In this document: positions 22,750 to 40,582 of the stretch, one piece after another
Position numbering within the stretch: position 1 is the first letter of the stretch
Layout: every line of letters starts with the position of its first letter
From: Candidatus Peribacterales bacterium
Lineage (GTDB): Bacteria > Patescibacteriota > Gracilibacteria > Peribacterales > Peribacteraceae
Assembly (NCBI GenBank): GCA_020058765.1
Contig: JAGVDM010000001.1
Coordinates: 1-64,000 of the forward strand
Length of the DNA: 64,000 nucleotides
Direction: 5' to 3'
The notes under the pieces: model-generated
The model's database searches: none
The model's input: only the letters and a program-made list of their open reading frames with translations
Told to the model about the DNA's origin: nothing
Translations under genes and position numbers: made by a program

Positions 22750-23604
22750 TTAGAACGGCAAGTCTTCTACCTTCACTTCGGATTCGTACTGCACTGCGGG
22801 CATTGCCGCACCTACCGGTGCAGGCTGCGCAGAGGATGGCGCCGTATCTCGTCGCACCACAGGCGCACCAGAAGCATTGATCGAGTCGGCAACGGACGGA
22901 TTGGCCGTGCCGAGGAGTGTGCACTGCTCTGCAATCACCTCTGTGGTGTAGCGCTTACTGCCGCTCTGTGTTTCCCAACTGCGCGTTTGTACGCGACCAG
23001 TAACGTACACGCGAGAACCCTTTTTCATCTGCTTACTGACTTGCTCGGCAAGTGCGCCCCAAATGACGACATTGTGGAACTCGCTGCGCTCTTTGTCTTC
23101 GCCTGTACTACGATCCTTCCAGCGATCATTGGTTGCCACACCGATCGTCACCACCTGCTGGCCGCTCGTTGTGGTGCGTACTTCTGGGTCACGTGTAACG
23201 TTCCCAACAATCTCTGCACGGTTCACACCGTCAAGAAGTGCCGAGCCCTCCGGAGCCGGGAGCTGGCCATCTTTAGGATCAAGCATAATCATATCGAGAC
23301 CGACGATCTTGGTTTTGGAGCGCTTCTCTTTACTCTGTTCGTCTTCCCAGCTGTCTGTTTGCAAGCGACCGCCAATGAACAATTGAGAACCGGGGCGAAC
23401 ATACTGCCCAGCAATATCTGCCATGGCACCCCAAAGGGTAACCGTATGAAAACTTTTGCCAGTGAGCCGTTCGCCGGACTCCGACTGGAATGCATAGGGC
23501 ACGACCAAGTTCAGGTCAGTCACGCTTGTGCCGCCGGGAGTCTGTCTGATCTCCACGGGCTGTGTTTGATAACCGATGATGTGTACGCGATTGTAGGAAT
23601 ACAT
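22750..23604 (-). CDS. ssb: Single-stranded DNA-binding protein with two OB folds
   Basis: The 284-aa protein contains two SSB-type OB folds in tandem. OB1 is residues 1-112 (YNRVHIIGYQTQPVEIRQTP and SFHTVTLWGAMADIAGQYVR). OB2 is about 125-230 (NRAEIVGNVTRDPEVRTTTS and EFHNVVIWGALAEQVSKQMK). A flexible tail follows that ends VKVEDLPF, like the partner-binding tip DDDIPF. Most bacterial SSBs have one OB fold and form tetramers; the two-fold form is known in Deinococcus-Thermus. The frame opens far upstream, but the ATG at 23604 gives the normal N-terminus; TTTCCCC lies 9 nt before it. Confidence 0.93.
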   Translation of the reverse strand: MYSYNRVHIIGYQTQPVEIRQTPGGTSVTDLNLVVPYAFQSESGERLTGKSFHTVTLWGAMADIAGQYVRPGSQLFIGGRLQTDSWEDEQSKEKRSKTKIVGLDMIMLDPKDGQLPAPEGSALLDGVNRAEIVGNVTRDPEVRTTTSGQQVVTIGVATNDRWKDRSTGEDKERSEFHNVVIWGALAEQVSKQMKKGSRVYVTGRVQTRSWETQSGSKRYTTEVIAEQCTLLGTANPSVADSINASGAPVVRRDTAPSSAQPAPVGAAMPAVQYESEVKVEDLPF

Positions 23605-23827: not shown

Positions 23828-26800
23828 ATGTACTGCGCACGCTCGCGGCTTCGGGTGCACCCTCTTCTCATGATGGGTGCGGGGCTCCTACTTGGTGGGG
23901 TATTTGCAGGCAGTGCGAATGCCGCGTTATTTCGCATAACGCCATTCCCTCCCACGAGCCCCACAGGAGTGCAAACCATGACCAATAATGTGGAGCAATA
24001 CATTGATGATGCGCAGTGTGGTGGCTGGAATTACGAAGAATCTGCCGCAGGGAAGATTGCAACAGTAACCGGACTGCCCGGGAGAACAGGCGATCCGTTC
24101 GCAGTTGTGGAATTGGGTATGGCTCTGCGCGATGAGCGCGGGGAGCTGCTCGATGACGGGTTCCAGTTCCCCGATACATCTGACGTGTGGGGTTGGACAT
24201 CCGCATGTGCACCGGGAAGCCCTCCGTACTACCAAGACACCGCGGCAAAAACTCCGTGCAAGAATTCTGGAGAATGCGAACAATTGTGCGCTCGCATTAA
24301 CCGATGGCAACAACCTCGATGGCTCTGCACGGTCTACCACACGGATGACGAGGGAAATGTGGTACCGCGGTTTTCGACACTGCGTGGAGACTGTCGTGAG
24401 CATAAGGGGAACAACCCGAGGAACGAACCGGCAAGACCGGCTGCGGCCCGTGGCTGTGACGAGGTGCAGTTCCTAGGCTGGTACTACTGTTGTACAAGCC
24501 AAAAAGTGACATACATGTTCTACGAACAGTGTAAGGAAGGAAGCTCTGCAGCATGCCTGTCGCACCCAGATCATCTGCGCAACTGTATTCGCTGCGAGGG
24601 TGATGGAGCGAACACTGGGAAGGCTGGCGTCCCTACCGATAACAACGGGGAGAAAATCCAGCGCGGAGCGGGGGCATTGTTCAACGAAACGGGGTGCCGC
24701 GTGGGGCGATCAGAAACACAAATGCCACTCCCCGATCCAGACATTCAGGATGTTGCCGGTCGCAAGCAGATTCTTGCGCGCCGCTATCGATCGTTCTTCC
24801 GAAAATATGTGGGCGCGTCATTCACGCGTGATGCGGTACAACCGGAGGTTCCGCGAGATAACAACTCCGAAAACAATCTGCCTGTCCTGTGCTTCGGGCG
24901 ATACGCTGAGTTCGACCCCAAGCTCACTCGAGTGAACAACAAGGCACACAACTGTGTGCTGTATATCCGCAACCATACGCAAATATGGATCAACAACATG
25001 GAAAGGTCTCAAAAAGGAAAAGGTGACCTCGCAGACGCACTCAATCTGCCCGATCCGCCCTACCCCAAAAAGCAGGAAGAGGGGGAGCAGACGTTCTGGC
25101 GCAACAATCGCATTGGCGGAGGTGACGATGAAACCAATTTCCTGGAAATGGCGATCAAGTACCAGCGTGTAAACCCACAGCTGAAAGTGAAGCAGATTCG
25201 TTCCAGCGGTTCGTTGATCCGCGCATTCGACGAAACGGTCGCAACCGACCCAATTGATCCTGCGAATATTAACAATCTGAAGCGCACGCTCGTGGAATGG
25301 TGGCAGGGCTTACAAACAGAGGGGAACAAATTGTTCAATGAACCCACAATACGCGTGGTAATCCCCCCAGCATGGTCGCTCGACTTAGACCCAACACACC
25401 CCATTCTTTCGCCTGTGCCTCCAGAGGAAGAGGCAGCACAGTGGGACACCGATCCGTTGCAACAGCCAATAGAAGTGCAGGTAGAGCTGCGGGATGATTT
25501 GCTGGGAGATGTGGCAGACTTCTTAGAAAGCTCGCTGCTGCTGCAGGTGCAGCAAGAACGTGTACCGATTGCCGTGCCTATGGGCTCTTCCACCGAGCTG
25601 CGCATTGCGCGGGAAGGGTGGTGCAAATGGCATCGGTACCAAAACCCCGATGAATCGTGCGATGACGCCAGCGGCGACATGGGCGATCTACTCGATCGAT
25701 TGGAAGAATACGCAGACCGCATCGACGAATACCGCAAACTGCGCGCGGAGCTTTCTACCTACCTTGCAAAGTACTTAGAAATGCACAACACCATTAACCG
25801 TAACGTTGGTGAGTGGGTGCTCGATAATGCACGAGTCATTCAGGAACACCGCGAAGCGCGTGATGCACTGGCTCCGCTCAAGAATGAATGGATGGCCATT
25901 CAGCAGGTGTACCGTCGCTTCCACGATGACGGCAATTTCCCTTGGTGCCGCAATGACCGTTTCACCACCCCAATCTATTCCCTCCTTGATCCATGGATGC
26001 CCGGGCGACCGGATCTACGGGATCAGCAACAGCTGCTACCGACCTTTGAAATCCCACGCGCACCAGATCTACTATTCGATATGACACGGCTTACTGTTTC
26101 AACGGGATCAATCAAAATCCCCGTATTGGAACCGATCCAAGTGACAGTGGATGTCACGAGTTTGCGTGCGCCATTGGACTACAACAAAGACGCGAAGATT
26201 CCGAAGATTCCGCCACTCCCTCCTATTCCTACCATCAGTGCGAATATTGATGATCGTATCCCGGAAGTGAATGTGGGGCAGGACTTACCACCTATTGTGG
26301 AGAATCCTCGTCCGCCCGAGGTGAACCCAGAAGAAATTCTGCAAAAAATGCGCACCGTCCGCCAGATCATCACGAGAATGGACCAAGAATACCGGCTGTT
26401 CTGGGGTACGCTGAACCGTGTGAATGATCCGTCAGATCTGGATTGCTCACGCCCCAATTCCGGACGATGCAGACATGTAGAAATGGATCTGGTGGAACGC
26501 TTCACTCGCATCGGCGCACGGCCAGCAGTGTTACTGAAAGAAGATTTCCTCTCGGTCAAAGGCCCCTATCAGTTCTCCAATGGCCCACGGTTCCGCGAAC
26601 CTGCTCGGTACGATGGGTACGATTCCTGCCCAAAGGAAGACTGGGCGTGCTACCTCATGAATCCGCAATTGGATAAAGGCCGTGCTGGTTGGCATATTCA
26701 ACATCCAACGCCAGAGGAGCAGGAAGAGTTCATTAGTGAAATCCGCAAGGAAGCAATTGAGTCGTCGCTATTCAAAGGAATCAATCTGCAAGTGCCGCCT

Positions 26801-26875
26801 GCAAAGATTCTGCCGTCGTTCAATAAACCAGCGGACATTCAGCTCTACCCAATTGAAGACGAAGACGAACAATGA
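23828..26875 (+). CDS. Large secreted cysteine-rich protein of unknown function (operon gene 1)
   Basis: The 1015-aa protein has a signal peptide (residues 1-32, LLMMGAGLLLGGVFAGSANA). I do not recognise a family. The mature N-terminal third is rich in cysteines (about 17 up to residue 380), including PCKNSGECEQLCARINRWQ, GWYYCCTSQK and RNCIRCEGD, suggesting a disulfide-stabilised outer domain. The middle (about 620-700) is helical (DLLDRLEEYADRIDEYRKLR). A Pro/Ile-rich linker KIPKIPPLPPIPTIS follows near residue 790, and a last Cys-containing helical domain follows that. It is the first of five genes that each overlap the next by 4 bp. Confidence 0.75.
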   Translation: MYCARSRLRVHPLLMMGAGLLLGGVFAGSANAALFRITPFPPTSPTGVQTMTNNVEQYIDDAQCGGWNYEESAAGKIATVTGLPGRTGDPFAVVELGMALRDERGELLDDGFQFPDTSDVWGWTSACAPGSPPYYQDTAAKTPCKNSGECEQLCARINRWQQPRWLCTVYHTDDEGNVVPRFSTLRGDCREHKGNNPRNEPARPAAARGCDEVQFLGWYYCCTSQKVTYMFYEQCKEGSSAACLSHPDHLRNCIRCEGDGANTGKAGVPTDNNGEKIQRGAGALFNETGCRVGRSETQMPLPDPDIQDVAGRKQILARRYRSFFRKYVGASFTRDAVQPEVPRDNNSENNLPVLCFGRYAEFDPKLTRVNNKAHNCVLYIRNHTQIWINNMERSQKGKGDLADALNLPDPPYPKKQEEGEQTFWRNNRIGGGDDETNFLEMAIKYQRVNPQLKVKQIRSSGSLIRAFDETVATDPIDPANINNLKRTLVEWWQGLQTEGNKLFNEPTIRVVIPPAWSLDLDPTHPILSPVPPEEEAAQWDTDPLQQPIEVQVELRDDLLGDVADFLESSLLLQVQQERVPIAVPMGSSTELRIAREGWCKWHRYQNPDESCDDASGDMGDLLDRLEEYADRIDEYRKLRAELSTYLAKYLEMHNTINRNVGEWVLDNARVIQEHREARDALAPLKNEWMAIQQVYRRFHDDGNFPWCRNDRFTTPIYSLLDPWMPGRPDLRDQQQLLPTFEIPRAPDLLFDMTRLTVSTGSIKIPVLEPIQVTVDVTSLRAPLDYNKDAKIPKIPPLPPIPTISANIDDRIPEVNVGQDLPPIVENPRPPEVNPEEILQKMRTVRQIITRMDQEYRLFWGTLNRVNDPSDLDCSRPNSGRCRHVEMDLVERFTRIGARPAVLLKEDFLSVKGPYQFSNGPRFREPARYDGYDSCPKEDWACYLMNPQLDKGRAGWHIQHPTPEEQEEFISEIRKEAIESSLFKGINLQVPPAKILPSFNKPADIQLYPIEDEDEQ

Positions 26876-27837
26876 AGCTCTATCGCATTCTCGCCATCGG
26901 CCTCGGCATCGCTCTCGTAGCGCCCATATCGCTAGTGTCTGCACAGGGTGATGAAAACTCCTGCGTAGAAGCAATCAACACTTCACTCGCCCGTGAACAG
27001 CGCATGTACCGCGGGGTATTGTTTGGCGAACCGTCAGTAGAGGATGCGCCAGTCGGGAACGTGAAGTTCGATGGATCCGGAAAACCGTGGATACGCATTA
27101 AGCCCATCCCACCGGGGGAAGATGAGGCAGAAGATAGCTGGGCGTCCGTATCCGGCGAAGGGGAAGACTCCAAAACCATGCAGGAGGCGGCGGATGACTT
27201 TGGACTGAGTGTGGAAGCTGCGAGCAGTGCCCCCGATGGCACAGCGCGCGCAGATGAAGACAATGAAATATGGGTAAAAGTCGGCGGTTCCTGGAAAGAA
27301 GCACTCGATTTGAAAGACGATGATGAAATATACGGTGATGTGCCTACGGGCGATGGCATCTTCGGCACGCGCCGCATCATGACATCGGAGCTTGTGCCGT
27401 ATCTCACGCAAACCATGCGTGCACTCCAGTGCAAAACCGCTGCATTGTGCCAGCAGGTGGAATTGTCGTTCAGCGGGGGTTCGGCGCAAGACGGCCCCGC
27501 CGGCTGCATGCAAATGGGTGGCACCATTTCTGCATGCGACTTTACAGACAACACCAGTGGGCAGCCTGACGTGAGTAAGTTGCGTTCCTACTGTGAACGC
27601 ACGAGCAAAGAACTGCTTGAACGCGAAGCCGAGCTCCTCAAACTCGCAGTGGAATACGACGCCGCATACCGCAGTATTCTGCAATTTGCCGGCAACTTCG
27701 ATCTTGCCTTACACGAGTTCCGCTGGCCGCTCACGTTCAGCCTTCGGCAATCAACTGGCGTCATCGCCGAGCTTGGGCGCATCCCGTGCTTCCTTGGGAG
27801 CTGTGATGCTTATCCTGATACTCCTGAATTCCGGTGA
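26872..27837 (+). CDS. Secreted protein of unknown function (operon gene 2)
   Basis: The 321-aa protein has a clear signal peptide (MKLYRILAIGLGIALVAPIS, cleavage near VSA-QG). An acidic central region (residues 80-160, rich in D, E and S) may be disordered. The C-terminal half holds nine or so cysteines, with the pattern CKTAALCQQVELSF, GCMQMGGTISACDF and IPCFLGSCDAYPD, plus a helix LLEREAELLKLAVEYDAAYR. Its ATG overlaps the upstream stop by 4 bp, so translation is probably coupled; no Shine-Dalgarno is seen. Family unknown. Confidence 0.72.
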   Translation: MKLYRILAIGLGIALVAPISLVSAQGDENSCVEAINTSLAREQRMYRGVLFGEPSVEDAPVGNVKFDGSGKPWIRIKPIPPGEDEAEDSWASVSGEGEDSKTMQEAADDFGLSVEAASSAPDGTARADEDNEIWVKVGGSWKEALDLKDDDEIYGDVPTGDGIFGTRRIMTSELVPYLTQTMRALQCKTAALCQQVELSFSGGSAQDGPAGCMQMGGTISACDFTDNTSGQPDVSKLRSYCERTSKELLEREAELLKLAVEYDAAYRSILQFAGNFDLALHEFRWPLTFSLRQSTGVIAELGRIPCFLGSCDAYPDTPEFR

Positions 27838-28661
27838 TGCAAAAAACGCCCTCGCGCACATCGGCGAAAAAAGAGCTGCTCTTTGCGGGCATTGCCCTAT
27901 GCGCATTAGCAGGTTTTGCTTTTTGGAAAGGGGACAACCTGCGACTTGCCGGCCAAACGGTTGTTGGCGGTGTTGGTGGACCCAATATGCCAATACTAGG
28001 TGCATGCACCGGCCGTGAGGAGGAAGATCTCTACGAGATCACACGCGAAGATTTGCAGTTCCCGGGTCCGCCCGATGTGATCGACATGTGGACCGAGCGC
28101 TACCACAAGCGTGTGGAGCAAATTGTGGATGAGTATTTGGCGAATATGCAGTTTGAAATTGACTGCCTCAATTCGAATGTGGATCAATTGGTGCCACCCG
28201 GAGCCCAAATGCTCGCTCTTGCTGCGCAGCTACCACCCTGGGAAAACGGCGGAGGTGCGGACTTATCGTACGTGGATACGCCTACCGTACTCCTAGAATT
28301 TCTACGCACGTACGAATGTGCACTCACTGAGAGGTACTTCTTCTCCTTTGGCGATGTGACGAAGGAACTCAAGGAAATTATGGCACGCAACGATGCAGAG
28401 TTGTTATGGGGAGAAGTGATTGAAGAGTACGTCGAACAAGCTCGAAAAATCGGGCACGAAATGTCTATCGCTCGCCCGGCAATGAATCGTGTGCTCACAG
28501 TCACGAGCGGTCGGGGAAGGCTGAAAAACTTGGACATTGAGGCGGAGTGTTTCTACCGAGCAACAATGGATTTGCGAAATGCGATGTCCCTTGCTGCAGA
28601 GGCCTCTGCCTGCTTCCCACGTGTACAGGATACGAAAGACCCTCTTCGCGATTACGAATGA
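27834..28661 (+). CDS. Membrane-anchored extracellular helical protein (operon gene 3)
   Basis: The 275-aa protein has a basic N-terminus and a hydrophobic segment (LLFAGIALCALAGFAFW, residues 15-31) acting as signal anchor or uncleaved signal. The rest is predicted extracellular and mostly helical, with five scattered cysteines (LGACTG, EIDCLNS, TYECALTER, EAECFYR, SACFPR). The start is GTG at 27834 or the adjacent ATG at 27837; it overlaps the previous stop either way. Unknown family; cotranscription with its neighbours is inferred from the overlaps. Confidence 0.7.
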   Translation: MMQKTPSRTSAKKELLFAGIALCALAGFAFWKGDNLRLAGQTVVGGVGGPNMPILGACTGREEEDLYEITREDLQFPGPPDVIDMWTERYHKRVEQIVDEYLANMQFEIDCLNSNVDQLVPPGAQMLALAAQLPPWENGGGADLSYVDTPTVLLEFLRTYECALTERYFFSFGDVTKELKEIMARNDAELLWGEVIEEYVEQARKIGHEMSIARPAMNRVLTVTSGRGRLKNLDIEAECFYRATMDLRNAMSLAAEASACFPRVQDTKDPLRDYE

Positions 28662-31054
28662 TGCGGAGAACCCTCGTCCTCATTGGCGGACTCTGCGTGC
28701 TGCTCCCTGCGGCAACGTTGGCAGCGGAAGAAGCGCCCATAACGGGGCTCTATCCAACGGTGCTGCAAATGACGCGGCAGGAAAATAACCAATCATCAGC
28801 GGAGCTCGCACTAAAAATGGGCATACCGCAAATACTCGCTGGAAAAACGGCATTCCCGATCACGGCGCAACACGTTGAGGCAGCAATCACCAATAAGTTC
28901 TCTACGCTCTGCAGTAATGGTGAATTGAAAGACGTGACGTTCACGGAATGCATGGAAGTGGCAGCACAAATCGTGGAAGTGGCACAAAGAGAATCATGGA
29001 TTCGCGCGCTGGGGCGGGACTTGATGATGATTGCGACAAGTTACGAACCAGAAGCCGATGGCCACACCGGCAGAAAGCATGAGCTATCTGTAAAGCTGCC
29101 CGCTGCAATGTACTGGTGGCAATCCGGATCCGACAGGGCAACAAACCCCGCAATGAGCACAAAAATACGGTTAATGACCGTGGACGACGACGAATTCGAA
29201 GAGCATGCCGACGACATCAGCGGGATCCTCAGTGACTTTAGTTTTGATAGTATAGTGACGTTATTGCAACGCTATAAACACGGATATGCGGTGGTGCAGG
29301 GGAAAGACAATCGCGGCGATTGCGATGAAGATGAGGATGAGGGTGGAGGCGGCGGAGAATTGGGCGAGCTCACCATACGCAGCTGCGAATTGGAGGTGGC
29401 GCTACACAAGACATGGGAAGATTTACCACACGATGAACTACAAAACGTTCAGGAAGGTGAGCTCGTCGTGTTCCCTGTTTTTGACCTCACGGTACCAGGT
29501 TTTTCGAATGTCGTACTGTGGTTGCGAGCGGATGACGTGGGGCTGCTCTGGGGATTGCCTGTGCAGCCCGTACTCCCCGATATCACTGTACCGGGTGGCA
29601 GTTACATTGGCGGACCCGGGGCACCGGGGTTGGATGAAGGTATTTGTTCACATGCATTCGGCAAGCGCGGTTACTTGTGCAGGCCGCAAGAATTGGAGGA
29701 CTGCCCTATTGATCTGGAACCTCTTGAGCCTGAGCAAGGCGAAGAAGAGCCTGTGGGCGGCACCATCGAATTGCATGCGTGTGTGCCGCATAAGTTTGAA
29801 ACACGCAAAATAGAATCCGGATCGAACTCGTGCCAGGTAGGCGGATGGCGGATCCCTACGGAACCAAGCATCATGCTGCAGGAAGATACACCGACCAAAG
29901 ACAATAAATTGCAGGCAGAGTTGTGCGAGAACTGCAAAGTAGATCTGTACTGCCAAGGTGACTGCGATGGCGCATTGGGAATGACCTACAATAAAAACGA
30001 AAAGGGGGTTATTCCTATTTGTTTGAAACAACAGCAGGAAGTGGCTCCATACGAATACATCGTGCTACACGAACTGGTACATGCGCAGCAGAAGTGCAAT
30101 CTTCCTATTGAAGGAACCTTGGATAGTGACACGCAGGCAGGCTGCTGTACTGCGGAGTACTACCCGAATGTGGTCATGTGCAAGGCAATGATGGAAGACG
30201 GACTAGTCGACGTGAAGAAATTCACTCTAGAGGAGTGCGCCATGATGCTTTCAAACGAGAGTTGTGCGACGTGGGAATATGCATGCACGGGGGAACCGCC
30301 CGATATTGACTCCTACAACGAACGAAAGGAACTGCTCTGGGAATCATTTAAGCCCCCGCCTCCACAGGGGCAAGAGTGTCAGAACGCTATCCGCCAAATG
30401 AGTGAACGGGCACTTTCCATCAAAGAATCCTTAAAACTGAGCTGCACTCCTGGATGCGAAGCGCAGTACGAAAATACGATTGGGAATAACCTCTGCTACA
30501 TCAGCCAGTGCGTAGAGGAATCGCTCGAGGCACATCGCCTCATTCCGGGGCGCATTCCATACGTCACGCAGGATGAGGCATATCCATGGGATTCCTGCAT
30601 GAAGGATCGCTCGGAGTTGCCGGATCTGGTGGCAATACCGCCACTTACCCGTACGTTCCTGCCGCAGTACCGTGGCCGTGATTTGGTGGAACAAATGGAT
30701 ATGCTGCTCTGCCAAGTCAGCGGACTCCCCAAGCTCTCGCCACCGATCCTTTGCACCTTCCATCCCAATCGTAGAACAAACCAGCCACTTCGGGATTACG
30801 CAGACACATTCTCAAGCTTACTGAGCCTGAACGAAGAGAGTGCCATGCGTGCGCAAGATCTGCAGGGCAGTGCACAGAATATCGGCACACGTATGGGAAC
30901 CATGATGTACCAAAACTATCTGCATAAAGCGTTGCGGGAATTCGCAGACCTCGTGCGCGCCGCAAACGGCTTGATCTATGCTGTAGGCGATACACAAATC
31001 CCTTCTGTTGCCTGCCCGCGCAATTACACCGGCGGCTGCGGCATTTTCCAATGA
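28658..31054 (+). CDS. Secreted cysteine-rich protein with HELVH zinc-protease motif (operon gene 4)
   Basis: The 798-aa protein begins with a signal peptide (MMRRTLVLIGGLCVLLPAAT, cleavage near LAA-EE). About 30 cysteines lie in the mature part. At residues 467-477 is IVLHELVHAQQ, the HExxH signature of zinc metallopeptidases, embedded in a Cys-rich region; a third zinc ligand is not obvious, though glutamates in AEYYP and WEYACTGE are candidates. An acidic low-complexity patch (CDEDEDEGGGGGELGE) lies near residue 225. The frame opens at 28547; the ATG at 28658 is chosen for the signal peptide and 4-bp overlap. Family otherwise unknown. Confidence 0.72.
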   Translation: MMRRTLVLIGGLCVLLPAATLAAEEAPITGLYPTVLQMTRQENNQSSAELALKMGIPQILAGKTAFPITAQHVEAAITNKFSTLCSNGELKDVTFTECMEVAAQIVEVAQRESWIRALGRDLMMIATSYEPEADGHTGRKHELSVKLPAAMYWWQSGSDRATNPAMSTKIRLMTVDDDEFEEHADDISGILSDFSFDSIVTLLQRYKHGYAVVQGKDNRGDCDEDEDEGGGGGELGELTIRSCELEVALHKTWEDLPHDELQNVQEGELVVFPVFDLTVPGFSNVVLWLRADDVGLLWGLPVQPVLPDITVPGGSYIGGPGAPGLDEGICSHAFGKRGYLCRPQELEDCPIDLEPLEPEQGEEEPVGGTIELHACVPHKFETRKIESGSNSCQVGGWRIPTEPSIMLQEDTPTKDNKLQAELCENCKVDLYCQGDCDGALGMTYNKNEKGVIPICLKQQQEVAPYEYIVLHELVHAQQKCNLPIEGTLDSDTQAGCCTAEYYPNVVMCKAMMEDGLVDVKKFTLEECAMMLSNESCATWEYACTGEPPDIDSYNERKELLWESFKPPPPQGQECQNAIRQMSERALSIKESLKLSCTPGCEAQYENTIGNNLCYISQCVEESLEAHRLIPGRIPYVTQDEAYPWDSCMKDRSELPDLVAIPPLTRTFLPQYRGRDLVEQMDMLLCQVSGLPKLSPPILCTFHPNRRTNQPLRDYADTFSSLLSLNEESAMRAQDLQGSAQNIGTRMGTMMYQNYLHKALREFADLVRAANGLIYAVGDTQIPSVACPRNYTGGCGIFQ

Positions 31055-32496
31055 AACTACTTCATGTGTTCCCTCTCGGCATTCTTGCAACTGCACTGTC
31101 TGTGCAGAGTGCAATTGCTGCATGCCCCCCAGGAGACACCGGAGATATTTTGGATCTTGACCCGATTTCGAGCCACTATACGGCAAAGGTGTTGGAGCGT
31201 GCCGAGGCGGGCATCACTAAGGCTGAATCGTTTGACCCTATCGATCTGGATTTGGAGTTTCTCTATTTCGACTGGCTCGACGAAATCACAGCATTCATCG
31301 GCGAACTACTCGATACCGATTTGCGGCTGGCGCAGGAGCAACTCGATCTACGGCAGCACACAGCCTGCCTCTATATTGATTTGGAAATCATTGAAGCAAC
31401 CATGGCCAAAGTGCAGTGCATGATGAGTGAGGAAACACTTACGGAAGACGAAGTGAATCCCGGAAAGATTTTCTATCTGCACACAGTGTTGATGTTCTTA
31501 AACGAACGGTACCGCAACCTGGCCGCAGGGGGCACGGATCCGAAGTACCGAGATAATGGTTGGACGGTGCCACAAATCTTCGACGCAACGGACTACAGCA
31601 AAGAAGATCCTCTATGCCCATTCCACAGCAACTACTTGCCACCCACCATCCATGGCTACGGCTGCGACACAGAAGTGATGGGACAATATTCACTCACGCC
31701 AGTTGATGAGGAAAATGACGCACTGGAAGACCTAATTGAGGAGCGAAATGAGTTCATTGAAGACTCGCAAGATCTTGATGATCTCATCCTCCGGTTAAAC
31801 TGGTTCACTGGCCAAGCGCCTCCAGATCTCAGCAATTTTGGCGCAGGTCTTGATCGTGAGCATGAAGAGTTCTCTGGGTGCTTGGAAGAGGACGACGAGA
31901 GTATCTTCGCACGAGGCGGCACGCAGGTGGAGCTGCGAGGGCCGTTCTCTTTTGAGAAAGACGAACCCAAAATTGTTCGTGAATTTTTGGAACAACGATC
32001 GCTCTGGGGCGCAAGCAGACCGCAATCTGAAGAATTAAAATTTCCTACGGAAATAGAAGATGACGATGAGCGTGAGGCCGCAGAAGAGCGCGAGTTCAGC
32101 CTATCGATACTTGATAAGCTAGTACGCAACGTCGCGCGCTTATTCATTCACTATTGGAATATTGAACAGAGCCGGCGAGAGGCGGGCATCATCGCCAAGT
32201 CCTCCGACCCATACCTGCAGACGCAAAAAGAGCTGCAGGGACTGCGTACGCAGGTGAAGTGGCTCGCAGAGCTCGCAAGTGTAAAGGAGACGGGTGGCCG
32301 CCTATTTACAGCCAAATTGGGCACGTTTCTCCGCGCTTCGTGTATTTATCGCCCCTGCAACCAACAGCTGGAAAATGTGCTTAAAGTGACGCTCACGGAT
32401 AACTGCTTCCCGTTTGTGAGTGGAGAGCATGCACGAATGACCGAGGCAGATGAGGATCCAGATGCCCGATGCGTGGAGTCCGCACGTTTGCAATAA
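31051..32496 (+). CDS. Secreted helical cysteine-containing protein (operon gene 5)
   Basis: The 481-aa protein has a signal peptide (MKLLHVFPLGILATALSVQS, cleavage near AIA-ACP). The mature part is acidic and mainly helical: residues 65-130 (FLYFDWLDEITAFIGELLD, and LYIDLEIIEATMAKVQCMM) look like a long helical hairpin joined by cysteines. A charged region (EDDDEREAAEEREFSLS) sits near 335. The C-terminal part has paired cysteines in ASCIYRPCNQQ. Overlaps gene 4 by 4 bp. No recognised family. It is followed after 42 bp by dnaE, which has its own promoter. Confidence 0.7.
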   Translation: MKLLHVFPLGILATALSVQSAIAACPPGDTGDILDLDPISSHYTAKVLERAEAGITKAESFDPIDLDLEFLYFDWLDEITAFIGELLDTDLRLAQEQLDLRQHTACLYIDLEIIEATMAKVQCMMSEETLTEDEVNPGKIFYLHTVLMFLNERYRNLAAGGTDPKYRDNGWTVPQIFDATDYSKEDPLCPFHSNYLPPTIHGYGCDTEVMGQYSLTPVDEENDALEDLIEERNEFIEDSQDLDDLILRLNWFTGQAPPDLSNFGAGLDREHEEFSGCLEEDDESIFARGGTQVELRGPFSFEKDEPKIVREFLEQRSLWGASRPQSEELKFPTEIEDDDEREAAEEREFSLSILDKLVRNVARLFIHYWNIEQSRREAGIIAKSSDPYLQTQKELQGLRTQVKWLAELASVKETGGRLFTAKLGTFLRASCIYRPCNQQLENVLKVTLTDNCFPFVSGEHARMTEADEDPDARCVESARLQ

Positions 32497-32538: not shown

Positions 32539-35500
32539 ATGCGCCCAGAGGATTTCGTTCACCTGCATTGTCATTCCACGTACTCGCTACTGGAGGCGCT
32601 GCCGAGCCCAGAGGAGATCGTTGAGCGAGCAAAGGAATTGGGACAATCCGCAGTGGGCTTGGCAGATAAGGGATACACCTACGGCCTTACGGAGTTCTAC
32701 AAGGCAGCCAAGTCTCACAAGCTCAAGCCGATTCTTGGGCTAGAGACATACGTTGCTGCACGCACCCGATTCGACAAAGAGAGCGGCACCGACACGCGTC
32801 GGTATCCGCTCGTGCTCCTGGCAGAAACACAGGAGGGCTACGAAAACCTGCTGGAGTTGGCTACACATGCTGCACTCGAAGGCATGTACTACAAACCTCG
32901 TGTGGATGCGGAATTACTCCAGAAGTACGGGAAAGGACTCATTGCGCTCTCTGGGCCTATAAGCGGTGCATTGCCTCAGGCAGCACTCGCAGAAGATGAA
33001 GACCGCATACGGGAGCTAGTAGGCCAATACCGAGAATTTTTTGGTGATGAAAACGTATATTTCGAACTCATGGATTTGCCGTCTGTCACCGGACAGGCAG
33101 AAGTGAATCAACAACTGATTCATTGGGGAAAGGAACTCAATGTGCCACTGGTGGCGACATGCAATTCGCATTACTGCAGGCAAGACGATGCAGAGGCACA
33201 CGACGTGCTGCTGTGCATCCAGAAAAATGCGCGGATTGATGATCCAAGCCGGTTTTCCATGCGCGACAGTGATTTTTCCATGCGGCCGTACAGCGAGGTG
33301 GAGAAGGCATTCGCTCATGTGCCCGAAGCATTGGAGAACACAAAGTTGATCGCTGATCGGTGCAATGTGCGGCTCGATTTTTCCACGTATCACATCCCTC
33401 GCTTCCCTGTACCCACGAAGCAAAATGAAGCTGCGTATCTGCGCACGGTATGCGAGGAAGGGTTTGCGAAGCGCTATGCGAACCCCACAGACGAACACCG
33501 CGAACGCCTAAATTACGAGCTGGGTGTGATTGAGCAATTGGGGTTCCCAGGATACTTCTTGATCGTGTGGGATTTTGTACGAGAGGCGAAGAGTCGCGGC
33601 ATTACGGTGGGCCCAGGTCGCGGATCTGCTGCAGGTTCCATCGTGTCCTATTGTTTAAACATCACGACATTGGACCCCATTGAGCATGGACTACTGTTCG
33701 AGCGCTTCCTGAACCCAGCACGTGTAACGATGCCAGATATCGATATCGACTTTGCAGACAACCGCCGTGACGAAGTGCTCAACTATGTTCGTGATAAATA
33801 CGGGAAAGACCGAGTAGTGCAGATCTGCACATTCGGAACACTGGCGGCGCGTGCCGCAGTGAAGGACGTTGGCCGTGCGTACGGTGTGCCATTCCTCGAA
33901 ATGAACGCGCTTGCGAAACTGATCCCAGAACGACCCGGTACCACACTCGACGAAGCGCTGGCGACTCAAGAGCTGAAGCTCGCCTACGAAAGCAATGACA
34001 CGTACCGCAAAATCATCGATGCGGCATTAAAGCTGGAGGGAAAGGCACGCCACGTATCGGTGCATGCCTGTGGTGTGATCATTACGGAAGGGCCCACGGT
34101 GAAGTACACCGCCATTCAGCGTGCTCCAAAAGATGAAGACACCATCATCACGCAATCGTCCGCAAAGCCGCTGGAGGCTCTTGGATTGCTAAAAATGGAC
34201 TTCCTAGGACTCATGAACCTTACGGTGATTCAAACAACGCTCGAGATCATCGAGCGCACGGAGGGTGAGAAAATTGATATTACGGCAATACCGCTCAACG
34301 ACGCAGCGACGTACACGCTACTGCAGCATGGCGACACCACCGGTGTGTTCCAGCTGGAATCCGGCGGTATGCGCCGGTACTTAAAGCAACTCAAGCCGAC
34401 TGAGTTCAACGACATCGTAGCAATGGTGTCACTCTATCGCCCTGGTCCAATGGAATGGATCCCGAGCTATATCAAGCGCAAGCATGGCAAGGAGGTGGTG
34501 AAGTACAGCCACGACGATCTGAAGCCCATCTTGGAACCAACGTACGGTATCGGTATTTATCAGGAACAGATCCTGCAAATCGCACAAGTGTTCGCGGGAT
34601 TTTCTCTTGGAGAAGCTGACTTGTTGCGCCGTGCGATCGGAAAGAAGATTAAAGAAGAGCTGGACGCACAGCGCGAAAAATTCATCGAGGGTGCAACGAA
34701 AAAAGGGTACGACAGCGCACTCGCTGAAGAGATTTTCGACGATGTTATTACGCCGTTCGCCGGATACGGTTTCAACAAGTCTCACGCTGCGGGCTATGCG
34801 CGCGTCGCCTACGAAACTGCATACCTGAAAACGCGGTACCCCACAGAGTTCATGGCCGCGCTATTGAGTGCAGATGCACAACGCACGGATCGTGTGATGA
34901 TTGAGATTGAAGAGTGCCGCACGATGGGGCTAGAAGTGCTGCCTCCGGATATCAACGAATCGTTGCGCCACTTTACAGCGCTGCCACAGCGTACGGACGA
35001 GGCAGGCAACCTCCGCCCAGGCATTCGCTTCGGCCTCACTGCGATCAAAGGCATTGGTGACAGCTCTGTGATGGAGATCATCGCTGTACGCGAAGAAGGT
35101 GGAAAATTCACCAGCATCGAAGACTTCGCGCAGCGTATCCCGAAGAAAATTCTCAATAAGAAACTGCTGGAATCCCTTGGGAAATCTGGCGCACTCGACT
35201 CGCTCCTTGAGCGAGGGCTCGTTGTGCAGCATTACGAAAAAATCGTGGAATACGGCAAATCAGGGCAGGACATTGGCGCAGGGCAAACCGACCTGTTCGC
35301 AAATCTTTCGGCCGATACGGGCGCTGCGGCAATCGAGTTTCCCGCGGCCCCGCCCGCCACGCATTTGGAAAAGCTGAATTGGGAAAAAGAGACCATGGGT
35401 CTCTACGTTTCTAGTCACCCACTCGCCGGCTTAAAAAAGTACATCGGCAAAAAAGCGCACCTCATCGCCAACTTGGAACCCAAGCAGGTGAAAAAGAAAG

Positions 35501-36276
35501 TGACGGTCGCCGGCATCGTGGAATCGATCAAGAAGATCAACACGAAGAAGGGGGAAACCATGGCGATCGTGATGCTGGAGGACCCAACAGGCAAACTGGA
35601 GGTGACGCTCTTCCCACGAACACTCGCAGAGGCTGCTGGCTTCTTAGAAGATCCAGATTCTGTGCTGGTAGTAGGAGGAACCCTGGATGAGCGCGGCGGC
35701 CAATTGCAGGTACGAGCAGACGCCGTAAAGCGAGCATCACTGAGTACCATGATTCAGAAGGCCAAAGACGCGGGAATGTACGACGAAGAGGCGGCGAAAA
35801 CCGGCATCATGCCTGTACGACAGCACGCAGTAGATGATGAGGTCGAAATGTTGGATGAGGAGGGAAACGTTGTGGCTGGCGTCACATTGAAAGTAGTAGA
35901 AGAAAGCGCAGTAACCGATGATTTCCTAGGGCCAATCGGCCGGTGGATTACGCAAGGTATGGATATGCAATCCGCTATGCGGCAGTTGGGGATTTTGGAG
36001 GGGGCAAAAGCGACGGACGAGCCCGCCACGGTAGAAGATGATCTGCCCGCTGGGCCCAAGATTTCCATTCATACGATCACGCTCCCCACACACGCGCCAA
36101 AAAAACTGCTGCTCGACCTCAAAGAGGTGCTGCAAGCATTCCCCGGGAAGGAGAAGGTACAATTGAAAATCGGACCGCAGCAGATCCCTCTGCCCATCAC
36201 GATCAACATGTCCACAATCCTCGAAAAGAAGGTGGCAGATCTGCTCTCTGCGTACGAAGCTCAAGCATTGCGCTGA
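32539..36276 (+). CDS. dnaE: DNA polymerase III alpha subunit
   Basis: The 1245-aa replicative polymerase has an N-terminal PHP domain (VHLHCHSTYSLLEALPSPEE), the palm with VGPGRGSAAGSIVSYCL and the catalytic PDIDIDFADNRRDEVLNYV, the fingers region with SLYRPGPMEWIPSYIKRKHG and FAGYGFNKSHAAGYARVAYE, a helix-hairpin-helix region (RFGLTAIKGIGDSS), an OB fold (VTVAGIVESIKKINTKKGET) and a C-terminal extension. The PHP motif reads ADKGYTYG where active domains have DHGN, so PHP proofreading may be lost. tsaC starts 4 bp after it. Confidence 0.97.
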   Translation: MRPEDFVHLHCHSTYSLLEALPSPEEIVERAKELGQSAVGLADKGYTYGLTEFYKAAKSHKLKPILGLETYVAARTRFDKESGTDTRRYPLVLLAETQEGYENLLELATHAALEGMYYKPRVDAELLQKYGKGLIALSGPISGALPQAALAEDEDRIRELVGQYREFFGDENVYFELMDLPSVTGQAEVNQQLIHWGKELNVPLVATCNSHYCRQDDAEAHDVLLCIQKNARIDDPSRFSMRDSDFSMRPYSEVEKAFAHVPEALENTKLIADRCNVRLDFSTYHIPRFPVPTKQNEAAYLRTVCEEGFAKRYANPTDEHRERLNYELGVIEQLGFPGYFLIVWDFVREAKSRGITVGPGRGSAAGSIVSYCLNITTLDPIEHGLLFERFLNPARVTMPDIDIDFADNRRDEVLNYVRDKYGKDRVVQICTFGTLAARAAVKDVGRAYGVPFLEMNALAKLIPERPGTTLDEALATQELKLAYESNDTYRKIIDAALKLEGKARHVSVHACGVIITEGPTVKYTAIQRAPKDEDTIITQSSAKPLEALGLLKMDFLGLMNLTVIQTTLEIIERTEGEKIDITAIPLNDAATYTLLQHGDTTGVFQLESGGMRRYLKQLKPTEFNDIVAMVSLYRPGPMEWIPSYIKRKHGKEVVKYSHDDLKPILEPTYGIGIYQEQILQIAQVFAGFSLGEADLLRRAIGKKIKEELDAQREKFIEGATKKGYDSALAEEIFDDVITPFAGYGFNKSHAAGYARVAYETAYLKTRYPTEFMAALLSADAQRTDRVMIEIEECRTMGLEVLPPDINESLRHFTALPQRTDEAGNLRPGIRFGLTAIKGIGDSSVMEIIAVREEGGKFTSIEDFAQRIPKKILNKKLLESLGKSGALDSLLERGLVVQHYEKIVEYGKSGQDIGAGQTDLFANLSADTGAAAIEFPAAPPATHLEKLNWEKETMGLYVSSHPLAGLKKYIGKKAHLIANLEPKQVKKKVTVAGIVESIKKINTKKGETMAIVMLEDPTGKLEVTLFPRTLAEAAGFLEDPDSVLVVGGTLDERGGQLQVRADAVKRASLSTMIQKAKDAGMYDEEAAKTGIMPVRQHAVDDEVEMLDEEGNVVAGVTLKVVEESAVTDDFLGPIGRWITQGMDMQSAMRQLGILEGAKATDEPATVEDDLPAGPKISIHTITLPTHAPKKLLLDLKEVLQAFPGKEKVQLKIGPQQIPLPITINMSTILEKKVADLLSAYEAQALR

Positions 36277-39459: not shown

Positions 39460-39511
39460 TTTTGCTCTACCATAAGCCCTGTAAACGCCAGCGGAGCGAG
39501 GGATTTTGTGG

Positions 39512-39517
39512 TATACT
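39512..39517 (+). promoter_or_regulatory. -10 box TATACT for the coiled-coil gene at 39524
   Basis: TATACT is followed by exactly 6 nt and ATG (39524). This selects the inner ATG over the upstream ATG at 39506, which would lie before the transcript start. Confidence 0.5.
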
Positions 39518-39523
39518 ATTGGG

Positions 39524-40582
39524 ATGGCACTCCCTGCAGACGACGCAGCGGCAAACGACCAACGAAAGAAGGACTTCGACAAATACCTTGAGCGAAGTGC
39601 GGAACGCCGTGAGGAGGTAAAGGAAGAGCAACGTGAACACGCCGAAGAGCGCACCATTGAAGAACAGGCACGTGCAGAGCGGCAGCACCAGGAAGCACTG
39701 GGAGAAGAGCAACGAGAAGTGGAGCGCCAAGAGGCACTCGCAGATTGGCGAGAGCAGGAGAAGCAGCGCAAAAAGGATGTGGAGGCCGACCAAGCTCGGC
39801 GCCAGCGCGAACGTGAATTGATTCTCAAGAAGCAGAAAATCCACGAAGAAGAGGAAAAGAAACACAAGGAATACATGCAAAACCTGGAATGGGCTGCAGC
39901 AATTGAGCGTTTGAAAAAGCGCAAGTCAGACGAATCACACGCGGCAAAACTCGCCATTTATCATGCAGCAGAGCGCGAAGCGAAGGAGAAAAAGGAGCAT
40001 GCAAGCCAGGCGGATACTCTTCGGCAAAAAGAAGCGGAGCGTGTGGGGAGGCAGCTGCGAGGCGACATTGAAAAAGAGGAGCTGCAGGCGTTTAGCGAAA
40101 TCGAAGAGGATATTAACCAGCGCAAAGCGAAGCTCTTTGCCAAGGAGCAAACGGAGCAGATGCAGCTGCAGGCGGAGTGGAACCGCAAGCGAGCGATACT
40201 GCGGAGTATTCGCGATCAGAGTTTGCTGCAACGCACACGGGATGAACTGGAACGCGCAGAAAAGGCATCGCTTGCAAAGTTGCGGCAGAAGTACCAAGCG
40301 CAGGCAACGGCACTGGAGGTAGAACGCACACGCCGAATTGATGATGTACGTGCAGATGCCAAGCGTGGTATGGAACAAGCCACCGCAGATGAGCGGAACA
40401 CCAAGAACCGCAGTAGGCAGCAAGCCTCACAGGAGCGCTTGGAAAGCGATATCGATATGCATCGTCGGTTTAAGGAGGGTGTGGAGCGAGAGAAGGAGAT
40501 TCTGGGCATGACTTCGGAAGAGATGGCCGAAGCATCGGACGAGCGCCGCGAGAAGAAGCAGGAAGAAGAGAACAAAAAATAA
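39524..40582 (+). CDS. Long charged coiled-coil protein, 352 aa
   Basis: Almost the whole protein is predicted as one continuous alpha-helix or coiled coil, rich in E, K, R, Q and A (for example REEVKEEQREHAEERTIEEQ and KKDVEADQARRQRERELILK), with no hydrophobic segment. Such composition resembles TolA-like or structural rod proteins, but homology cannot be claimed because low complexity causes spurious matches. The inner start MALPADDAAAND is chosen from the -10 spacing. It sits between aspS and tRNA-Leu, facing the four-gene cassette at 40.7-45.5 kb. Confidence 0.7.
   Translation: MALPADDAAANDQRKKDFDKYLERSAERREEVKEEQREHAEERTIEEQARAERQHQEALGEEQREVERQEALADWREQEKQRKKDVEADQARRQRERELILKKQKIHEEEEKKHKEYMQNLEWAAAIERLKKRKSDESHAAKLAIYHAAEREAKEKKEHASQADTLRQKEAERVGRQLRGDIEKEELQAFSEIEEDINQRKAKLFAKEQTEQMQLQAEWNRKRAILRSIRDQSLLQRTRDELERAEKASLAKLRQKYQAQATALEVERTRRIDDVRADAKRGMEQATADERNTKNRSRQQASQERLESDIDMHRRFKEGVEREKEILGMTSEEMAEASDERREKKQEEENKK

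Follow-up and report, generated by a model that had tools for sequence, protein, structure and literature searches.

The window, by which we mean the whole stretch of 64,000 nucleotides at positions 1 to 64,000 of contig JAGVDM010000001.1 (Candidatus Peribacterales bacterium, family Peribacteraceae, class Gracilibacteria), contains an operon of five genes, here named A to E. A preliminary description of this DNA had presented them as consecutive, overlapping genes for proteins of 1015, 321, 275, 798 and 481 amino acids, four with a cleavable signal peptide and one with a signal anchor, rich in extracellular cysteines and of no recognised family. The layout holds in every point, and all five open reading frames were confirmed:

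23828..26875, + strand: gene A, open reading frame with ATG start, 1015 amino acids; secreted; probably a scaled-down counterpart of the giant surface scaffold found in other families
26872..27837, + strand: gene B, open reading frame with ATG start, 321 amino acids; secreted; 8 invariant cysteines; probable paralogue of C
27834..28661, + strand: gene C, open reading frame with GTG start, 275 amino acids; N-terminal signal anchor; 5 invariant extracytoplasmic cysteines
28658..31054, + strand: gene D, open reading frame with ATG start, 798 amino acids; secreted; 31 cysteines in the mature part
31051..32496, + strand: gene E, open reading frame with ATG start, 481 amino acids; secreted; 10 cysteines

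At each junction start and stop codons overlap by 4 base pairs (ATGA or GTGA). Judged by inspection and hydropathy, A, B, D and E begin with a hydrophobic N-terminus that closes in an AxA-type end, and C with a hydrophobic segment that has no obvious cleavage site. This fits the proposed four signal peptides and one anchor. The mature proteins A to E contain 24, 8, 5, 31 and 10 cysteines, respectively (2.1–4.0%), compared with 0.76% in 17 other proteins of the window. Cysteines are also the dominant invariant columns of the family alignments: 8 of 8 in B, 5 of 5 extracytoplasmic ones in C, and many in A, D and E. The presence of three DsbA-like Thioredoxin_4 proteins in the genome speaks in favour of a disulfide-bonded complex; no VKOR was found there. 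Scans of A to E against Pfam, NCBIfam and PHROGs gave nothing above cut-off, and the only recognisable trait is a zincin-like HELVH motif in D. Pfam N_methyl did not match A to E either, and a pattern scan found no prepilin motif at the starts of selected open reading frames of the window.

Within the Peribacteraceae the operon is widespread. D was detected in 48 of 96 related genomes, every one of the same GTDB family, C in 50 of the 57 family genomes (one marginal), and A has 37 homologues in the family. About 38 other genomes retain all five frames in the same order, at 20–55% identity, so the operon is not a chance arrangement. Approximately 37 of 40 fetched loci show A-B-C-D-E either complete or broken only by contig ends. 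A scan of named genomes with single proteins gave no match; a search with a subset alignment retrieved 31 loci, almost all from records titled Peribacteria, Peregrinibacteria or Patescibacteria, with a few titles of metagenome-assembled genomes being generic or different. In one Peribacteraceae genome, the open reading frame in the position of D reaches 2623 amino acids (L044:6971-14842).

Homologous gene sets across the class

The Peribacteraceae profile of C, the most widely detected member, gave weak matches in further families of the class (numbered here with f). Five loci from three of these families encode a giant of 3967–5171 amino acids (lacking at one locus), followed by B, C, D and E, and every one of these proteins has an N-terminal signal. 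A profile of the distant C proteins matches 129 of 288 genomes of the class, in about 22 families, and a C-profile search of 380 genomes across the phylum found matches only inside the class. With one locus read per family, all five members were identified by profile in f2, f4, f9, f15, f16, f18, f20, f21, f23, f25, f26, f27, f30 and f31; since the f30 locus is cut at a contig end, we state the count as at least 13 further families. The order A-B-C-D-E is the same in the loci read outside the Peribacteraceae, which answers the preliminary call for a check of gene order beyond this genome.

A second check proposed there, profile against profile, gave a similar picture. In a five by five hhalign matrix of Peribacteraceae versus distant profiles, each member pairs with its own counterpart: A at 99.7% (1.2e-26), B at 94.5% (8e-8), C at 98.0% (3e-13), D at 89.4% (2e-6) and E at 92.8% (4e-7). 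For D and E, the comparison failed with five distant sequences and succeeded with 19–23. The off-diagonal values are low, except for C versus B (73%), which indicates that B and C are probably paralogues. Clear homology to unrelated known families was not found in the Pfam, NCBIfam and PHROGs scans. Judged from the profile homology of each member and the shared order, the operon is the Peribacteraceae version of an ancient gene set spread across the class.

Two segments are shared across the class:

25289..26407, + strand: class-wide conserved core of A, residues ~488–860; coiled-coil hairpin, then proline-rich beta region
28446..28658, + strand: C-terminal helical segment of C, common to the class-wide family (alignment, hhalign 97–98%)

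The A profile independently recovers the core of A in 15 giants (E 6e-8 to 1e-18), each time within the second half of the protein. These giants, which take the place of A in other families, measure 3.9–5.5 thousand amino acids, and those scanned contain FG-GAP, SLH, TSP3 and Ig-like modules in Pfam. SLH domains are carried by distant giants from f16, f15 and f27; the N-terminal part of one f9 giant gave weak Ig-like matches only. The comparison suggests that the Peribacteraceae A is a scaffold that has shrunk relative to the giants. The latter open with a conserved domain of ~250 residues (GDVPLPVV...PYTDF...WHG; L074:7208-8107) that has no Pfam or Protein Data Bank (PDB) match. A caspase- or gingipain-like reading of this domain, based on motifs, was dropped after Pfam and PDB profiles gave it no support.

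The AlphaFold model of A has a predicted local distance difference test (pLDDT) score of 72.6, with helices 617–679 and 682–702 forming the long coiled-coil hairpin. For D the score is 70.6, with the confident part at ~410–560. Neither model had a significant match in the PDB (Foldseek, VIA-align); both are long and of middling confidence, so the absent matches do not prove new folds. Profile searches of PDB sequences with A, C, D and the N-terminal domain of the giants returned no credible match. A CFAP36 match of C (E 0.001) covers a helical stretch and was taken as composition.

In D, a zincin-like module stands out:

29840..30292, + strand: zincin-like module of D, residues ~395–545; pLDDT mostly >85; in some relatives located in A, degenerate or absent
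30068..30082, + strand: HELVH, a zinc-binding-like motif of the HExxH type, D residues 471–475

Around HELVH, D matches Peptidase_M76 (PF09768) below threshold (14 bits versus a cut-off of 25.2, Pfam E-value 0.045). The best structural neighbour of the module is PprI (Z 4.2, root-mean-square deviation 3.9 over 90 residues), followed by several M1/ACE-type proteins at Z 3–4, all below a trustworthy level; Foldseek gave 4l7a at a non-significant E of 0.7. The HExxH module lies within D in most Peribacteraceae, at the N-terminus of A instead of D in four loci of the family, and one genome keeps just a protein with the module. Such movement between two genes of the operon would suit products that are parts of a single assembly. 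Furthermore, D and E are fused into one protein of 1069 amino acids in f31 (L110:10284-13493), and swap and fusion together are a sign that the products work together.

Pilus and ATPase genes beside the homologous operons

Co-encoding with pilus genes, as known for PilY1, was seen for homologous operons in nine families (f16, f31, f21, f27, f18, f23, f4, f25 and f26). Here, T2SSE and T2SSF genes lie on the same strand directly upstream of the giant gene, mostly preceded by pilN/O-like and pilO-like genes and separated from the giant by a prepilin gene. For one of the nine the domain assignments were verified, and the f26 locus starts inside T2SSE at a contig end. The T2SSF genes found 17–19 kilobases (kb) from C in genomes G080, G111 and G146 are as expected from this layout. 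Two further contexts were found: in f14, a T2SSE ATPase lies adjacent to the C homologue or within a few kb of it, and in f22 the C homologue is directly behind a HerA/TraG-type ATPase. Several f22 genomes need TGA to be read as glycine. C homologues behind HerA/TraG-type ATPases were recorded at L060:8407-9363 and L168:7940-8911 (code 25, TGA read as glycine), and the one in G115, read with code 25, is a secreted protein of 318 amino acids.

At the Peribacteraceae locus, the operon has other neighbours. In the family it is flanked by a divergent ssb on the left, with murB beyond it, and by dnaE on the right (gene names from sequence):

22750..23604, − strand: ssb, divergently oriented gene to the left, retained in the family; context, outside the operon
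32539..36276, + strand: dnaE, gene to the right, retained in the family; context, outside the operon

The ssb product, encoded head to head with A, seemingly combines two OB-like halves in one protein. Elsewhere in the window, 39506-40582 encodes a protein of 358 amino acids without a Pfam match, adjoining tRNA-Leu and aspS.

A complete-looking type IV pilus operon of the same genome begins 6.9 kb past the window end. It encodes PilB, PilC, several prepilin-like proteins and a pilin (L152:8936-18305; C7:70936-80300), and includes a protein of 509 amino acids with 22 cysteines. A few kb upstream there is also a PilD-like gene.

Among 51 genomes, 35 had both C and T2SSF, 4 C only (one marginal), 7 T2SSF only and 5 neither (Fisher p 0.02, uncorrected for descent). 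Pili and operon thus occur together often, but not always.

A tentative surface complex and its alternatives

Across the class, the gene set is often found directly behind type IV pilus genes, usually with a giant surface protein, and for this reason probably encodes part of the cell-gripping machinery. Our favoured interpretation, which we hold tentatively at a probability of about 0.42, is that A to E are subunits of a single secreted surface complex, stabilised by disulfides, that cooperates with a type IV filament motor and has attachment as its likeliest purpose. A would be the scaffold. Its version in other families contributes Ig-like modules, an FG-GAP part of the beta-propeller type and, in the giants scanned, SLH domains for wall binding, and the shared core would be the coiled-coil hairpin with the proline-rich region. 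B and C would be paralogous helical proteins, C remaining membrane-tethered, and D and E further subunits, D often bearing the zincin-like module. The partner would be the filament machine with its ATPase, platform protein and pilin, and the complex would most likely be the adhesive, wall-anchored component in contact with the cell of the host or prey. In the Peribacteraceae, the scaffold appears to have lost its large arms, and the locus now lies apart from pilus genes.

The preliminary description had proposed that the five proteins form one complex or act in one process, such as attachment to, or uptake from, a host or prey. A conserved extracellular unit of undescribed families stands, and module swap and D-E fusion hint at joint work. 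Sequences, conservation, homology, gene order and genomic linkage are shown here, whereas mutual binding of the products, wall anchoring, disulfides, the filament partnership and the attachment role are inferred from them. For the proposed attachment or uptake, the pilus genes supply a concrete candidate partner outside the family, where A is a giant with FG-GAP and SLH domains.

Several observations weigh against this interpretation. The distant homology of D (89%) and E (93%) is weaker and covers the N-terminal parts only. The window's A has no Pfam match to SLH or FG-GAP. The Peribacteraceae operon itself is not adjacent to pilus genes; in seven genomes of the family PilC follows ~33–54 kb downstream, a distance that may merely mirror conserved gene order. 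No T2SSF match was found in G028, G041 and G044, Peribacteraceae genomes that are 96–99% complete and carry the operon, so the partnership is not obligatory there. Conversely, C had no match in the T2SSF-bearing f7, f17, G076, G005 and G042. Finally, the adjacency in nine families could be one ancestral arrangement.

Some of these points would be expected if the operon encoded a surface adhesin or S-layer-associated complex acting on its own, its proximity to pilus genes being historical and without joint function. Beyond the three genomes without PilC, it is the separation from pilus genes in Peribacteraceae, f9, f5, f2, f20 and f15, and the weakly significant co-occurrence, that would suit this explanation. 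The variety of contexts, next to filament or export ATPases of three kinds (T2SSE with T2SSF, T2SSE alone, HerA/TraG type), argues the other way, and we consider the explanation unlikely, if the best of the alternatives.

Another possibility is that the complex is not an adhesin, but an envelope-spanning conduit or collar for a filament or other export machine, standing in for a secretin where there is no outer membrane. Linkage to T2SSE/T2SSF and to HerA/TraG-type ATPases, the wall anchoring suggested by the SLH domains, and the membrane anchor of C are all compatible with such a conduit. Yet no ring-forming or channel fold was recognised, neither A nor D has a significant Foldseek match in the PDB, and the three genomes without PilC fit it poorly. 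It appears a rather improbable option. Similarly improbable, and broader in scope, is the idea that the ancestral class-wide module is a new wall-anchored docking or exit complex for type IV pilus and HerA/TraG-type motors, and as such the contact apparatus of the class. A secreted proteolytic complex, in which D is a zinc protease that the other proteins position or inhibit, can draw on the HELVH motif, the confidently modelled domain and its non-significant zincin neighbours, but appears very improbable, with a motif that is degenerate in several relatives (e.g. GLVRAQQ), missing from D in ~12, and found in none of five aligned D proteins of other families.

Relation to known systems

The favoured complex would resemble the tip/priming complex of PilY1 and minor pilins in consisting of several secreted subunits, whose genes accompany pilus genes in nine families outside the Peribacteraceae, and in the beta-propeller-type part of the distant giants. 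It differs in that B to E have ordinary signal sequences instead of prepilin leaders and the window's A has no propeller match. The PilY1 domain PF05567 had no match in 20 genomes or in the control genomes, nor in a Pfam scan of A. In Saccharibacteria, host binding is driven by type IV pili, and the suspected adhesin is a beta-propeller pilin (PMC12206443). Their T4P-2 with PilX2 is likewise a patescibacterial host-binding filament system with a beta-propeller adhesin candidate; it belongs to another class, a set like B to E is not reported there, and the C profile has no matches in other classes of the phylum. The likeness of D to zincin metallopeptidases (Peptidase_M76, M1, M61, PprI) comprises HExxH and the fold neighbourhood of residues 395–545, with every match below significance.

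Large cysteine-rich extracellular proteins, two annotated FG-GAP, were proposed for attachment in Peribacteria (PMC4736985). They are from the same lineage and also large and secreted; the present operon, with 2–4% cysteine, is not named in the accessible portion of that report. Large cysteine-rich, possibly attachment-related proteins had already been reported, so the idea is not novel on this point. For Vampirococcus, a predatory relative within the wider group, giant membrane or surface proteins were proposed for host recognition (PMC8080830); the giants are alike, and the excerpt available describes no operon with B to E. We found no description of the A to E operon in the open-access literature (main texts, without supplementary tables), and by this search both the protein families and the operon appear undescribed.

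Most surface proteins of the class are without an assigned family. Giant surface proteins, so far listed singly, are here linked with a constant group of small partner proteins and with a possible motor. With its gene order kept in at least 14 families, its invariant cysteines and its frequent linkage to pilus genes, the five-gene unit provides named targets for the question of how this class grips other cells.
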